Positions 21,402 through 26,488 of a stretch of 64,000 nucleotides of DNA are shown here, one piece after another. How positions within the stretch are numbered: position 1 is the first letter of the stretch; each line of letters begins with the position of its first letter. Source of the stretch: Nitrosococcus wardiae (GTDB lineage Bacteria > Pseudomonadota > Gammaproteobacteria > Nitrosococcales > Nitrosococcaceae); assembly GCF_004421105.1 (NCBI RefSeq), contig NZ_CP038033.1:267659-331658 (forward strand). Direction: 5' to 3'. The notes under the pieces were generated by a model. It had not been told where the DNA came from and made no database searches. It saw nothing but the letters and a program-made list of their open reading frames with translations. The translations under genes were made by a program, and so were the position numbers.

Positions 21402-22022
21402 CTAAGGGGTAGGAACACCACCGGGATTAGGTGGCCCAGGCATTTTTGGCATCTGCGGTGCCCTCGGTGCTCTCTGCACGCCCCCTGGCTGGCCATTGCT
21501 ATCTTTGCGAAACAGAATGGATATACGTCGCATATGAAAGGTGATGGTCTCGGACTGGGCAATTGAAACCCCTGATGGAGCAAGTAATTTTGCCTGTAGC
21601 GTATGGGTACCCCGATCCACATTAGTCAGGGTATAGGTGAGGCTGGTACTTGTCTGGCCTACTGGCTGACCGTCAAGCAGAAATTGGAGTGTGTAGTTAG
21701 AATCGGCGTCAAGGGGGGGGCTTACCTGAAGGGCGACTTCAACCCTACCGGTATTTTCCCGCACAGTAGCATCATTTTCGGGAGTGACGATGCTAACCCG
21801 ATAGGATGGCACAGCTTGGGCTTGAGTTTTAATCTCATCGGTCGTTTTAATTTTAGGCAATTGCGGCGGCGTATATGTCTGCAGCGGCGTGACTTCCACT
21901 TCTGCGGCTCCCTCCCGCGGTTGATCAGAGTACTCAACTCGCCCATCTGGAGTAACGTACTTGTAGATACCAGCCACTGCAATAGCCGGCATTAAACCAA
22001 ACAACAGAAAAAGTATTCGCAT
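21402..22022 (-). CDS. DUF4124 domain-containing secreted protein
   Basis: Exported protein of unknown function. The ATG at 22022 gives 206 residues with a signal peptide (RILFLLFGLMPAIAVAG). The DUF4124 core follows immediately: IYKYVTPDGRVEYSDQPREGAAEVEV. A beta-rich middle (about 75-160) with the pattern of an immunoglobulin-like domain and a proline- and glycine-rich tail (PGPPNPGGVPTP) complete it. A TTG at 22034 is a less likely start. It lies downstream of the glnA terminator, and nothing links it functionally to glutamine synthetase, though this neighbour order occurs elsewhere in gammaproteobacteria. Confidence 0.82.
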   Translation of the reverse strand: MRILFLLFGLMPAIAVAGIYKYVTPDGRVEYSDQPREGAAEVEVTPLQTYTPPQLPKIKTTDEIKTQAQAVPSYRVSIVTPENDATVRENTGRVEVALQVSPPLDADSNYTLQFLLDGQPVGQTSTSLTYTLTNVDRGTHTLQAKLLAPSGVSIAQSETITFHMRRISILFRKDSNGQPGGVQRAPRAPQMPKMPGPPNPGGVPTP

Positions 22023-22147
22023 ATTCAAAAGCAAATAAATAGAAGCCTACAAATATATTCGGCAACAATTGAATTTAGTTTAAAAGAACGGTTTATTTTT
22101 GCCTGGCCTAGCCCATTATTGTAGGATTGAACACAAATCCAATAGCT

Positions 22148-22200: not shown

Positions 22201-23610
22201 TTAAAGGCTATAATACATATCGAACTCAATGGGATGAGTAGTCATCCGCAAGCGGGTAACATCGTTCATCTTTAGCGCAATATAAGCATCAATAGCATCA
22301 TCAGTGAATACCCCTCCTCCCTTAAGAAAATCCCGATCCCGATCCAAGGCCTCCAGCGCTTGTTCAAGAGAAAAACAAACCGTCGGAATTTCTTTCATCT
22401 CCTCGGGGGGTAAGTCATAAAGATTCTTATCCATGGCATCACCAGGATGAATCTGATTTTGAATACCATCAAGCCCGGCCATTAGCATTGCGGTAAAAGC
22501 AAAATAGGGGTTAGCCGTTGAATCTGGAAACCGGACCTCTATCCGCCGTGCTTTGGGGCTCGTCACATAAGGCACCCGGATCGATGCAGAGCGATTCCGG
22601 GCAGAATAAGCTAACAATACTGGCGCTTCGAAACCGGGGACTAAACGCTTATAGGAATTGGTCGAGGCATTGGTGAAGGCATTCAGTGCCCGGGCATGTT
22701 TAATAATACCCCCGATATAGTACAAGGCAATCTCGGATAAACCGCCATACTTATCGCCGGCGAAAAGATTTTTCCCCTCTTTAGCTAGGGACTGATGGGT
22801 ATGCATGCCACTGCCATTATCCCCTACTAAGGGCTTAGGCATAAAGGTAGCGGTTTTACCAAAAGAATGGGCGACATTGAGCACCACATATTTAAGAATT
22901 TGGAGTTCATCGGCTCGTCGTACCAAGGTATTGAATTGGGTCCCGATTTCACACTGCCCTGCCGTAGCCACTTCGTGATGGTGCACCTCAACAGGCAACC
23001 CCATTTGCTCCATGATCAAGCACATGGTGGAGCGAAGATCCTGGAGGGAATCAACTGGAGGCACAGGGAAATACCCACCTTTAATGGTGGGTCGGTGTCC
23101 AATATTACCTCTCTCATAGACCCGCTCAGAATTCCAATGGGACTCTTCAGCATCAATCTTATAGAAAGCTCCTGAGATATCCGCTCCCCAGCGCACATCA
23201 TCCAACACGAAAAATTCAGGCTCTGGACCAAAATAAGCCGTATCAGCAATACCCGTGGACTTCAAATAGGCTTCGGCACGCTTTGCAACAGACCGAGGAT
23301 CTCGTTCATAGCCCTGCAGGGTCGTCGGCTCCACAATGTCACAACGGAGCACCAAGGTCTTCTCCTCCATGAAAGGATCAAGCACTGCCGTTTCTGGATC
23401 TGGCATCAGAATCATGTCTGATTCTTGAATCGCCTTCCAACCTGCAATGGAAGAACCATCAAACATCTTACCCTCCCTGAAGGCCTCCTCATCTAAGCGG
23501 TAGGCAGGCATGGAAAGATGTTGTTCTTTTCCTCGGCTATCCGTAAAGCGGAAATCAACAAATTTTACCTCCTCCTCCTTAATGGTTTTAAACACATCAT
23601 CAACAGCCAT
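22201..23610 (-). CDS. glnA: Glutamine synthetase, type I
   Basis: Makes glutamine from glutamate, ammonia and ATP, the main entry of ammonia into metabolism. The 469-residue length and motifs such as [26 protein letters not shown] and the NKGRIS-like NRSASIRVP identify the dodecameric GlnA of GSI-beta type. The adenylylation site lies in [10 protein letters not shown], so activity should be controlled by GlnE. The gene ends at a strong terminator. tusA lies 73 bp upstream on the same strand; no textbook NtrC/sigma-54 promoter was found there. Confidence 0.98.
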
Positions 23611-23683: not shown

Positions 23684-23920
23684 TTAATTTGCTGTTTTAC
23701 CCACTTCCAAACGTACCACCACCTCCCGGTCACGTTCGGTAGCTTTAAGCACGCGATGGCCATTGACCCGGCACCATGCGGGAATATCGTTCAACGCCCC
23801 CGGATCGGTGCTTATTACCTCCAAAATATCCCCTGAGACCAGTCCCTTAACTTTTTGTTGGGTTCGGATCACAGGTAGTGGGCAGAGTAAATGGCGAACA
23901 TCCAATGTTTGCACGTTCAT
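23684..23920 (-). CDS. TusA-family sulfur carrier protein
   Basis: Small persulfide carrier that relays sulfur from a cysteine desulfurase to thiolation enzymes. The ATG at 23920 follows AGGAG and gives 78 residues. The essential cysteine lies in LLCPLPVI (Cys13 with the CPxP motif), and the rest fits the two-helix, four-strand TusA fold. In enterics TusA feeds the mnm5s2U tRNA pathway through TusBCD and MnmA; in sulfur oxidisers TusA homologues act in dissimilatory sulfur flow. The gene directly downstream of the thiolase-like gene (55-bp gap) makes a tRNA or cofactor sulfur-transfer role more attractive. Confidence 0.9.
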   Translation of the reverse strand: MNVQTLDVRHLLCPLPVIRTQQKVKGLVSGDILEVISTDPGALNDIPAWCRVNGHRVLKATERDREVVVRLEVGKTAN

Positions 23921-23975
23921 CAAATTCTCCTCAGGATGGCTAATTCTAAAACCAACTACAGCTTAATGAGAGTAA

Positions 23976-25019
23976 TCAGACATACCACCCTTTAGGTATG
24001 TCTTCATTAGAGAGAGGCGCAACCTCCAAGATCTGTGTCAATCCACCGGGACGGATGACTTTTACCTGTACTTGCTGCGCCTCTCGTCCTTGGCTAAAAC
24101 GGGCCACCAATTGGCCAGCCAGAATCATATCTTCTTCTTCCAGTGCACCATCAACCAACGTCAGTGGCCCCTTGTGACTGACGGTTCGCAAGTGAATAAA
24201 CTCTTTGGCATAGCCTTCCAAATAATTACTCTCCCCCCCATCGCGCGCCACAATGAGTTTAAAATGGGGACGTGGCCGCAGATGCCGTCCTACTTTGAGC
24301 AGCATAATATCGTCTAAATCGTAATCTCGGGCACGGCGGGCCTGCCATAAATCAGCCAGCTTAGCCGAATAGTTCGCATCAGTCAGGAAACAGCAACCGC
24401 CCGCAGGCTGAGCGTAATCTTCAATCCCAAAACGGGCGACTAAAGCCATTTGTGGCTTGCGCGAACGCCCACTAAAATCATAGAGCTTATCCCGATCCAC
24501 CCAGCCTTCACGTTCCGGAAGAGTTGGCGGTAGATTCTTAGCGCAGAGAGGCCGCAATAATAAATCATAGGCCCCCGATTCTCGCGCTACAATTGGCATG
24601 GTGTCTGCCCGCTGAGATTTAGGCCGCTGACCCACGACTTCACCCGTGACGATAAAATCAAAGTCATTCTCTTTCATCCATGCCAACGCCTTAGTCACCA
24701 TAAAGCACTTACAATCCAGGCAGGGGTTGAGATGAGCCCCATAACCATATTTTGGATTGAGCACAACGTCCTTGTATTCATCGATAACCTCTACCATGTG
24801 CAACTTGATTCCTAGTTGCTCAGCGACCCATAGGGCATTGTTGCGCTTGACTCGATTCTTATCCTTGTTTCGAATGGCGTGGGTATGCCCCTCTACACAG
24901 AACCCAGTAAAAAAATTGATTCCCTCTACGTGGATACCCTGCTCCTGCATGACCTTGGCAGCAAGCATGGAATCTAGCCCTCCTGAAATTAGGGCTACGG
25001 CTTTACGCTGTTTTTCCAT
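23976..25019 (-). CDS. PP-loop tRNA-thiolase-like protein with NFACT-R/DUF814-like C-terminus
   Basis: Predicted ATP pyrophosphatase that activates a substrate, probably a nucleobase in tRNA, for sulfur insertion. The 347 residues start with the PP-loop SGGLDS (12-17). Conserved cysteines lie in NPCLDCKCF (100, 103, 105) and GGCCF (209, 210); two of them sit where MnmA carries its catalytic pair in NPDxxCN and CF. The last 120 residues (from about 225) contain GRHLRPRPHFKLIVARDGGESNYLEGY, which resembles the NFACT-R (DUF814) RNA-binding region. It is often annotated as a tRNA methyltransferase or argininosuccinate synthase; neither fits. tusA is next downstream. Substrate unknown. Confidence 0.75.
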   Translation of the reverse strand: MEKQRKAVALISGGLDSMLAAKVMQEQGIHVEGINFFTGFCVEGHTHAIRNKDKNRVKRNNALWVAEQLGIKLHMVEVIDEYKDVVLNPKYGYGAHLNPCLDCKCFMVTKALAWMKENDFDFIVTGEVVGQRPKSQRADTMPIVARESGAYDLLLRPLCAKNLPPTLPEREGWVDRDKLYDFSGRSRKPQMALVARFGIEDYAQPAGGCCFLTDANYSAKLADLWQARRARDYDLDDIMLLKVGRHLRPRPHFKLIVARDGGESNYLEGYAKEFIHLRTVSHKGPLTLVDGALEEEDMILAGQLVARFSQGREAQQVQVKVIRPGGLTQILEVAPLSNEDIPKGWYV

Positions 25020-25039: not shown

Positions 25040-26488
25040 TTATATCGAAGTCCCACCTATGGTTAAACCATCGATCCGCAAGGTAGGCTGTCCCACACCG
25101 ACAGGCACCCTTTGGCCTTCTTTGCCACAGGTTCCCACCCCCGGATCGAGCCTTAGATCATTGCCCACCATCGCCACTCGCGCCATTACCTCAGGCCCAT
25201 TTCCAATTAAAGTCGCCCCCTTGACCGGGCAAGTGACCCTACCGTTTTCAATGAGGTAAGCTTCACTGGTGGTAAAAACAAATTTTCCAGAGGTGATATC
25301 CACCTGGCCGCCCCCAAAATCGACCGCATACAATCCTTTCTCTACCGAGGCAATAATATCGCTCGGATCATGTTCTCCTGGCAGCAGGTAAGTATTGGTC
25401 ATACGTGGCATAGGCAAATGGGCATAGGACTGGCGGCGCCCATTACCGGTAGGTTGGGTATCGCTAAGCCGGGCGTTCAGCTTATCCTGCATATAGCCTC
25501 GAAGTACCCCATTCTCGATTAACAGGGTGCAGTGTGCTGGAGTACCCTCATCATCAACCATAAGCGAACCACGACGGTTAGCCAAGGTACCATCATCCAC
25601 CACAGTACAATATTTTGAAGCAACCTTCTCCCCGATCCGTCCTGCACACGCAGAACTGCCCTTACGATTAAAGTCTCCCTCCAAACCGTGGCCTACGGCT
25701 TCGTGCAACAGCACCCCTGGCCAACCCGCCCCCAATACGACGATCATGGTTCCTGCAGGCGCTTCCCTAGCTTCTAAGTTAATGAGGGCCTGGCGAGTGG
25801 CTTCGCGAGCATAACCTAAGGCCCGCTCCTGTTCCAGGAAATAATCGTAGCCAAAACGGGCACCACCTCCGGCGCTCCCCTGTTCCCGCCGTCCTGATTG
25901 TTCCACAATGACACTGACGTTAAGCCTCACGAGGGGACGAATATCAGCCGCTAGAGTGCCATCATTGGCAGCGATTAGCACCACATCTTGGGTCCCCAGC
26001 AAACTGATCACCACCTGTTTGACTCGGGGATCTTGGCGGCGCGCTTCTTGATCAACTTGCTGCAACAGGGACACTTTATCCTCTGTTGAAAAACTCTCCA
26101 AAGGATCAATGGGCGCGTACAACTTTCGATTCGGCTGGCTACGCCAAGTCTGGAGACTCCCCTGGGCACCGCTATGGGCAATAGCACGGGCTGCGACTGC
26201 GGCCTGAGTTAAAGCGGGTAATAACACTTCGTCAGAATAAGCAAATCCTGTCTTCTCCCCGCTGATGGCCCGTACGCCGACCCCTTGATCCCGGCTATGA
26301 CTTCCCTCCTTGACCATCCCGTCTTCGAGTACCCAACTTTCCTGTCGTCTCAATTGAAAGTAAAGATCAGCGCTATCAATATGCCGACTCATCAATTGCC
26401 CTAGCACCCGCTCCAGATCTGTCTCACTAAGGCCAGCAGGCACCAACAGCAACGCCTTGGCCGTTTCCTTGACTTCCATTTGACTCAT
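25040..26488 (-). CDS. tldD: Metalloprotease TldD
   Basis: Zinc protease subunit that, with TldE/PmbA, matures microcins and degrades the CcdA antitoxin in E. coli. The 482 residues contain the HEAVGH zinc motif in [13 protein letters not shown] and the family motifs [10 protein letters not shown] and [14 protein letters not shown]. Length fits the family. pmbA is not in this window. The gap to nit carries an inverted-repeat-bounded element and no clear ribosome-binding site precedes the ATG at 26488; ATG at 26479 is an alternative start. The order rng-yhdP-nit-tldD is conserved in gammaproteobacteria. Confidence 0.96.

Follow-up and report, generated by a model that had tools for sequence, protein, structure and literature searches.

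The synthesis of 4-thiouridine at position 8 of tRNA (s4U8) is described by way of ThiI only, as far as the accessible parts of reviews such as PMC5372745 and PMC5372739 go. In E. coli, ThiI has two roles, the thiolation of tRNA and the provision of the thiazole sulfur of thiamine, and for the latter its rhodanese domain alone is given as necessary and sufficient in the available sections of PMC5372745. ThiI of methanogens and TtuA require a CxxC motif together with a third cysteine, and the archaeal cluster is described as indispensable (PMC5372739, in the portion available). MnmA enzymes fall into a D-type and a C-type, and the available text of PMC11784392 presents the existence of a cluster in E. 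coli MnmA as disputed.

Here, we analysed a stretch of 64,000 nucleotides from Nitrosococcus wardiae (the window). The initial annotation had placed a PP-loop protein, referred to here as X, beside a TusA carrier; both open reading frames are indeed present on the minus strand and their Pfam assignments agree with this description. We propose, with a probability of roughly 0.72, that X and its TusA constitute a ThiI-independent tRNA s4U8 synthase, and thus a non-orthologous replacement of ThiI. The product is inferred, without thionucleoside data. No publication on X, or linking X to s4U8, was found among titles and abstract openings, a search that did not cover most subscription journals, and likewise no X-bearing organism with reported s4U was found. 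A 2014 paper by Burroughs and Aravind, whose title predicts RNA-modification pathways, reportedly includes NFACT-R fused to a ThiI-like PP-loop domain. A general thiolation prediction may already be in print, and the broad notion that NFACT-R takes part in RNA modification does not originate here.

Domains, cysteines and relatives of X

X is a protein of 347 amino acids (positions 23976 to 25019, minus strand) that combines, by ORF and Pfam analysis, a PP-loop ATP pyrophosphatase with a C-terminal NFACT-R_2 domain, and is our candidate for a tRNA 4-thiouridine synthase. Its PP-loop/HUP part, residues 6 to 131 (24627 to 25004, minus strand), matches the tRNA_Me_trans HUP model of Pfam (E 1.7e-13); the ThiI model of Pfam also matches X, at residues 4 to 159 (E 5.4e-10). 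The ATP pyrophosphatase motif that had been read from the sequence is SGGLDS at residues 12 to 17 (24969 to 24986, minus strand), in which S12, G13, G14, D16 and S17 do not vary among the 65 aligned orthologues, and L15 is invariant in a 15-row alignment. The tail, at first called only NFACT-R-like, was identified as PF18297 (NFACT-R_2) at residues 244 to 346 (23982 to 24290, minus strand; E 2.6e-33; score 114.7 bits, cut-off 26.9). Pfam scans detected no THUMP, ferredoxin-like or rhodanese domain in X, whereas THUMP and ferredoxin-like domains were both detected in E. coli ThiI. The same scans found in X neither an NFACT-N domain nor the PRC-barrel and beta-barrel that follow the HUP domain in E. 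coli MnmA. X stays below every curated NCBIfam cut-off, including those for ThiI (TIGR00342, 37.6 bits against 264.5) and for MnmA (50.8 bits against 284 and 44 bits against 236.95).

The cysteines of X are strongly conserved. C100 and C103, which form a CxxC motif in NPCLDCK (24711 to 24722, minus strand), are both invariant in the 65 orthologues; C210 of the C209-C210 pair in GGCCFLT (24390 to 24395, minus strand) is likewise present in 65/65, and C209 in 63/65. In alignments, C103 coincides with the first MnmA cysteine, Cys102 in the NPDILC sequence of E. coli, and C210 occupies the position of both the second MnmA cysteine (Cys199) and Cys344 of ThiI. With C100, C103 and C210, X meets the criterion of a CxxC motif plus a third cysteine that marks [4Fe-4S] PP-loop thiolases. 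Judged from sequence, this invariant arrangement suggests Fe-S-type or persulfide chemistry, but no cluster has been demonstrated.

The cysteine pattern had initially been termed MnmA-like, which is correct for the CxxC motif and for the overall profile. It does not extend to the TGE..xQ..SQ motif, which X shares with ThiI and not with MnmA in our alignment, nor to RPL, which is common to X, ThiI and TtcA and missing from MnmA. NPxxxC is a feature of both X and MnmA in the alignment. Q131, which belongs to a motif common with ThiI, is a glutamine in 62 of 65 orthologues. By profile, the PP-loop domain is closer to MnmA (E 4.7e-18 over 203 columns) than to ThiI (2.6e-12 over 143 columns), BLAST gives 47 bits for E. 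coli MnmA versus 40 bits for the best ThiI, and the best PDB sequence match of X is an MnmA (E 5.8e-6). An AlphaFold model computed from 62 sequences (mean pLDDT 91.2, pTM 0.86) was compared with known structures in two ways. The top VIA-align match is 4kr6, a complex of ThiI with RNA, which covers residues 2 to 215 at Z 14.9; it is tied with YcfA (14.8) and ThiI 2c5s (14.5), and LarE (13.8) and MnmA (13.5) follow. Foldseek lists MnmA 2hma first, LarE second and the first ThiI (2c5s) at rank 19, with TtuA also among its matches.

X resembles several described systems and differs from each of them. With ThiI, it has in common SGGxDS, TGE..xQ..SQ, RPL, the cysteine at the position of Cys344, the top VIA-align match and, as described below, an exclusive distribution and a common chromosomal slot; it differs by lacking the THUMP, ferredoxin-like and rhodanese domains and by possessing NFACT-R and the NPCLDC CxxC motif. 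Its likeness to C-type MnmA consists of the PP-loop, NPCxxC with a later cysteine, the strongest profile match and the top Foldseek match, but X has neither of the two barrel domains, scores far under the MnmA cut-offs and coexists with a canonical MnmA. Archaeal ThiI, TtuA and the [4Fe-4S] enzyme LarE are PP-loop thiolases as well, with LarE at Z 13.8; their RNA- or ligand-binding parts, however, are unlike those of X, in which a cluster remains undemonstrated.

The genome of Nitrosococcus wardiae encodes a canonical MnmA (447 bits) separately from X, a TtcA with 72% identity to the E. coli protein and two TusA proteins, and ThiI was not found in a search of this genome. We therefore rejected X as a replacement for MnmA or TtcA, because canonical copies of both are present. 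A related possibility is that X acts as a second MnmA-type enzyme that makes or tops up s2U34, for which the MnmA-like CxxC motif and the best sequence and profile similarity can be cited. We attach scarcely any weight to it: X lacks the two C-terminal barrels of MnmA, its mutual exclusion concerns ThiI, and a canonical MnmA accompanies X in its own genome and in the 15 X genomes examined. The latter were recognised among 20 selected weak second matches of X in the class sample, all of which are MnmA (18 with 58-72% and two with 43-46% identity to E. coli MnmA) and 15 of which lie in X genomes.

At the C-terminus, residues 245 to 347 of the model have the NFACT-R fold of RqcH/NEMF, with matches to RqcH 8s1u (Z 14.3), 5h3w (Z 14.1) and CCDC25 8woh (Z 12.5). 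This likeness to RqcH could indicate that X functions in ribosome rescue or in another adenylation that is not a thiolation. As the NFACT-N domain is missing by Pfam, and the invariant cysteines and the co-inherited TusA point to sulfur transfer, we regard such a function as very unlikely.

The TusA partner and its linkage to X

The X gene is followed, after 52-55 bases and on the same strand, by tusA, which codes for a protein of 78-79 amino acids (23684 to 23920, minus strand; PF01206, E 2e-22, 79.2 bits against a cut-off of 28.6) and is proposed to provide X with a dedicated sulfur carrier. Sequence reading favours ATG 23920, which lies behind GAGGAG, as the likely start rather than the listed TTG 23923. 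Like E. coli TusA, this X-type TusA belongs to PF01206 and carries the LCPxPV cysteine motif, and the cysteine of the CP motif (C14) is invariant in 15 of 15 X-linked TusA proteins. Different from E. coli TusA, the X-type proteins form a separate subfamily that is inherited with X and is marked by an invariant W-x-R-x-x-G-H; the TusA of the window reaches 47.8 bits with the TusA equivalog model NF001423 and does not meet its cut-off of 78. On the other side of X, a tldD-family gene (25040 to 26488, minus strand; Pfam PmbA_TldD) ends 20 bp upstream and is placed outside the mechanism. Two loci from the same order, L046 and L065, likewise have it next to X.

Full-length orthologues of X (threshold E below 1e-100) were counted in two samples: 93 of 184 genomes of the class Gammaproteobacteria have one, as do 36 of 397 genomes of a phylum sample, 30 of them outside the class. 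In one order, which may be Pseudomonadales, X is present in 22 of 145 genomes. The carriers outside the class may be Magnetococcia-like bacteria. Among the carriers known by name are Thiohalobacter thiocyanaticus Hrh1, Sedimenticola selenatireducens and Methyloglobulus morosus. Others belong to Methylococcales, Methylophaga and Cycloclasticus, and their possession of X led us to reject a specialised part in sulfur oxidation as its main role. Reading the locus as a defence system was also rejected, as PADLOC gave merely a weak QueC match (E 0.0027).

A conserved neighbourhood of X and tusA had been set beforehand as a test of the thiolation reading, and the linkage passed it. Of 40 class loci (from 40 genomes and 38 families), 33 encode TusA immediately downstream of X, as do 19 of 24 loci outside the class, and the pairing exceeds what chance would give. 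In 17 of the 33 linked class loci, the distance from the X stop to the tusA start is -12 with the start chosen by the ORF caller. Among the best 80 of 545 contig loci, 68 are linked; of the 12 that are not, ten had room for the gene and two ended at the contig end. These three samples partly overlap. According to their titles, the best 80 of the 545 comprise 76 Pseudomonadota, three unresolved entries and one Acidobacteriota (L129), and the survey thus covers almost one phylum only. The X of L129, which is titled as an Acidobacteriota MAG, is 69% identical to that of the window, and this contig may reflect horizontal transfer or may be mis-binned or mis-titled. In 14 of the clustered loci (within L033-L072), genes of one family lie on the same strand just 3' of tusA; from its sequence, we take this family to be a cation-efflux transporter.

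Exceptions to the linkage were inspected individually. Five loci outside the class lack an adjacent TusA; for one of them, in genome G188, a linked-type TusA is encoded approximately 3 kb from X. Five of the seven class loci without adjacent TusA belong to genomes that encode TusA elsewhere, and the other two (G082 and G050) lie in genomes without any TusA-family match. These two genomes contain the most divergent X proteins (L051 and L052), which also lack C209, suggesting an enzyme version that works without a TusA carrier. In two single-contig genomes (G157 and G168), the copy beside X is the sole TusA match.

The subfamily was traced with a model (A3) built from 15 X-linked TusA proteins of the class and run over the 145 genomes of the order. 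The best score was at least 83 bits in 21 genomes, the remaining matches reached at most 72 bits, and the two ranges did not overlap. X-type TusA is present in 21 of 22 X genomes, whereas all 123 genomes that lack X also lack this carrier (Fisher 2e-24), so that it is also absent from all 84 ThiI genomes. One training sequence (L053) stems from a genome (G006) that is itself within this sample. The single X genome without X-type TusA (G588) is 93% complete. Together with G082 and G050, which have no TusA match, it implies that the carrier is not indispensable everywhere. Eleven TusA copies were examined from five class genomes in which X is unlinked: each genome has one copy that scores 106-134 bits with the linked-TusA model, the other free copies score no more than 76, and the high-scoring copies sit within the class linked clade with 98/93 support. 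A long-branched free TusA from a linked genome (L299) also falls inside this clade. In one family (f249), X and X-type TusA are separated by about 3.4 kb (L232), 2.5 kb (L234) and 26 kb (G633), and since its members keep both genes apart from each other, the co-inheritance of X and X-type TusA does not depend on adjacency.

The clean separation by the X-type TusA model holds within the class only. Outside the class, linked TusA proteins score 64-111 bits, all but one of them 93 or less, and overlap with free copies, which score up to 76. A single clade for all linked TusA proteins was not recovered: a 105-row tree needs nine label changes, compared with 33 when labels are shuffled, such a clade is missing from every bootstrap tree, and the short sequences leave many forks unresolved.

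Mutual exclusion with ThiI and a shared chromosomal slot

X and ThiI were not observed together in any of the searched genomes. The class sample of 184 genomes contains 93 with X and 13 with ThiI (p 6.6e-5), the phylum sample of 397 contains 36 and 120 (p 1.1e-6), and the 145 genomes of the order contain 22 and 84 (Fisher 3.8e-10), with not a single genome encoding both in any sample; in the union of the three, X is present in 144 genomes, ThiI in 201 and both in none. The exclusion extends to the families of the order, where, among the matches listed, ten families have X, 28 have ThiI and none has both (p 1.6e-6 over 43 families). Because the genomes are related, these p-values overstate independence. 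In the class sample, ThiI stands clearly apart from the PP-loop background, with no score between 246 and 55 bits; 12 of the 13 class ThiI proteins pass the curated cut-off, and the remaining one (G144, 246.5 bits) lies below it. The number of first-look candidates scored per genome was five or four in the phylum searches for X and ThiI, and 38 in the order search for X-type TusA. Absence is thus not absolute, because for many genomes a share of these candidates went unscored. TtcA served as a control: at E <= 1e-30, a threshold loose enough for matches of only about 32% identity, 81 of the 93 genomes with X and 64 of the 91 others have a match.

The genomic surroundings connect both enzymes further. 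In the window, glnA (22201 to 23610, minus strand), whose product is 71% identical to E. coli GlnA, lies downstream of tusA as a conserved neighbour; it serves as the slot marker and has no place in the mechanism. A DUF4124 protein (PF13511) is encoded between glnA and ntrB, at 21402-22034 in the window and in many sampled loci. For the order, we compared 20 of 84 thiI loci, hand-picked across families, with 20 of 22 X loci. thiI adjoins glnA divergently in 17 of its 20 loci, with bipA on the other side in nine of the 20. Of the 20 X-tusA loci, 15 have glnA no more than 4 kb away, 16 have bipA on the opposite flank of X, and 14 have both genes flanking X. X points towards glnA and thiI away from it, so that in this order the two share one slot, between glnA and bipA, in opposite orientations; other sequence is sometimes present between bipA and X or thiI. 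E. coli has glnA and bipA as neighbours with no annotated gene between them and thiI elsewhere. Class-wide, 26 of 40 loci have glnA no more than 4 kb from X. As the gene succession X, tusA, glnA is thus common across the class, we infer that this arrangement is probably the older one and that thiI is the newcomer in the order. A tree of GlnA and NtrC indicates four switches between X and ThiI, of which at least two are forced by well-supported branches. This tree contains 37 of 45 loci, the other eight having no GlnA match, and flanking genes do not equal a species tree.

These observations bear on the question of which activity X performs. X and TusA could thiolate another RNA site or base, in tRNA or rRNA, in which case the exclusion of ThiI would reflect lineage sorting or competition for tRNA. 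The PP-loop domain is indeed nearer to MnmA than to ThiI by profile and Foldseek rank, its CxxC motif lies where MnmA has its first cysteine, and X and ThiI are both missing from many genomes (by subtraction, 78 of 184 in the class, 241 of 397 in the phylum and 39 of 145 in the order). Because of these genomes, which may lack s4U8 or make it by a third route, s4U8 is possibly dispensable and the exclusion may in part result from lineage sorting. On the other hand, unrelated functions would hardly produce the zero co-occurrence in three samples, the two to four switches and the occupation of the thiI slot, and the roles of MnmA and TtcA are already filled in the genome of Nitrosococcus wardiae. 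We therefore consider another target site unlikely, although it is the alternative that deserves most attention.

A replacement of ThiI by X and TusA could also concern the thiamine pathway, with sulfur being fed to ThiS for the thiazole rather than to tRNA. ThiI fulfils both roles in E. coli, as stated in the accessible part of PMC5372745, and TusA is a general sulfur carrier. The same portion of this review, however, has the rhodanese domain alone as sufficient for the thiamine role. No rhodanese domain was detected in X by Pfam, and X instead possesses an adenylating PP-loop domain and NFACT-R, so that we find a function in thiamine synthesis barely credible. Since the thiamine role needs only the rhodanese domain that X lacks, the tRNA role of ThiI is the one most likely to have been replaced.

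Proposed pathway and implications

For the preferred reading, in which X and its TusA synthesize s4U8, the following sequence of events can be envisaged. A cysteine desulfurase would charge TusA with a persulfide, which would serve as the sulfur source in place of the rhodanese domain of ThiI. The NFACT-R domain of X would bind tRNA, in place of THUMP, and the PP-loop domain would adenylate O4 of U8. TusA would then hand its sulfur to C100-xx-C103 and C210, with C209, or to a cluster held by these residues, and the transfer may proceed via an open-coordination [4Fe-4S] cluster or via persulfide/disulfide chemistry. Finally, the AMP at C4 would be displaced by sulfur, yielding s4U8. The data themselves establish the domain composition, the invariant cysteines, the linkage and co-inheritance with X-type TusA, the exclusion of ThiI in the searched genomes and the slot held in common with thiI. 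The RNA substrate, position 8 and the chemistry are inferred from the equivalence with ThiI, and the sulfur route and the cluster are inferences as well.

The initial suggestion of a thiolation system distinct from TusBCDE-MnmA is strengthened by the conserved link to tusA and by the separate canonical MnmA of the same genome, but this support is comparative only. A more far-reaching version, which we regard as evenly poised between right and wrong, is that X represents a second, so far unrecognised s4U8 synthase, i.e., a [4Fe-4S]-type PP-loop thiolase with tRNA binding by NFACT-R and a private TusA donor, that has been exchanged with ThiI repeatedly at the glnA-bipA slot and would account for s4U8 in roughly one half of the Gammaproteobacteria sampled (93 of 184 genomes, none with ThiI).

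If our proposal is true, s4U would be expected in species that lack ThiI and possess X, and not in species with neither enzyme. A TusA protein would then serve a PP-loop enzyme other than MnmA, and NFACT-R would gain a role outside ribosome rescue. In many environmental bacteria and sulfur or methane oxidisers without ThiI, X and its TusA would close a gap.
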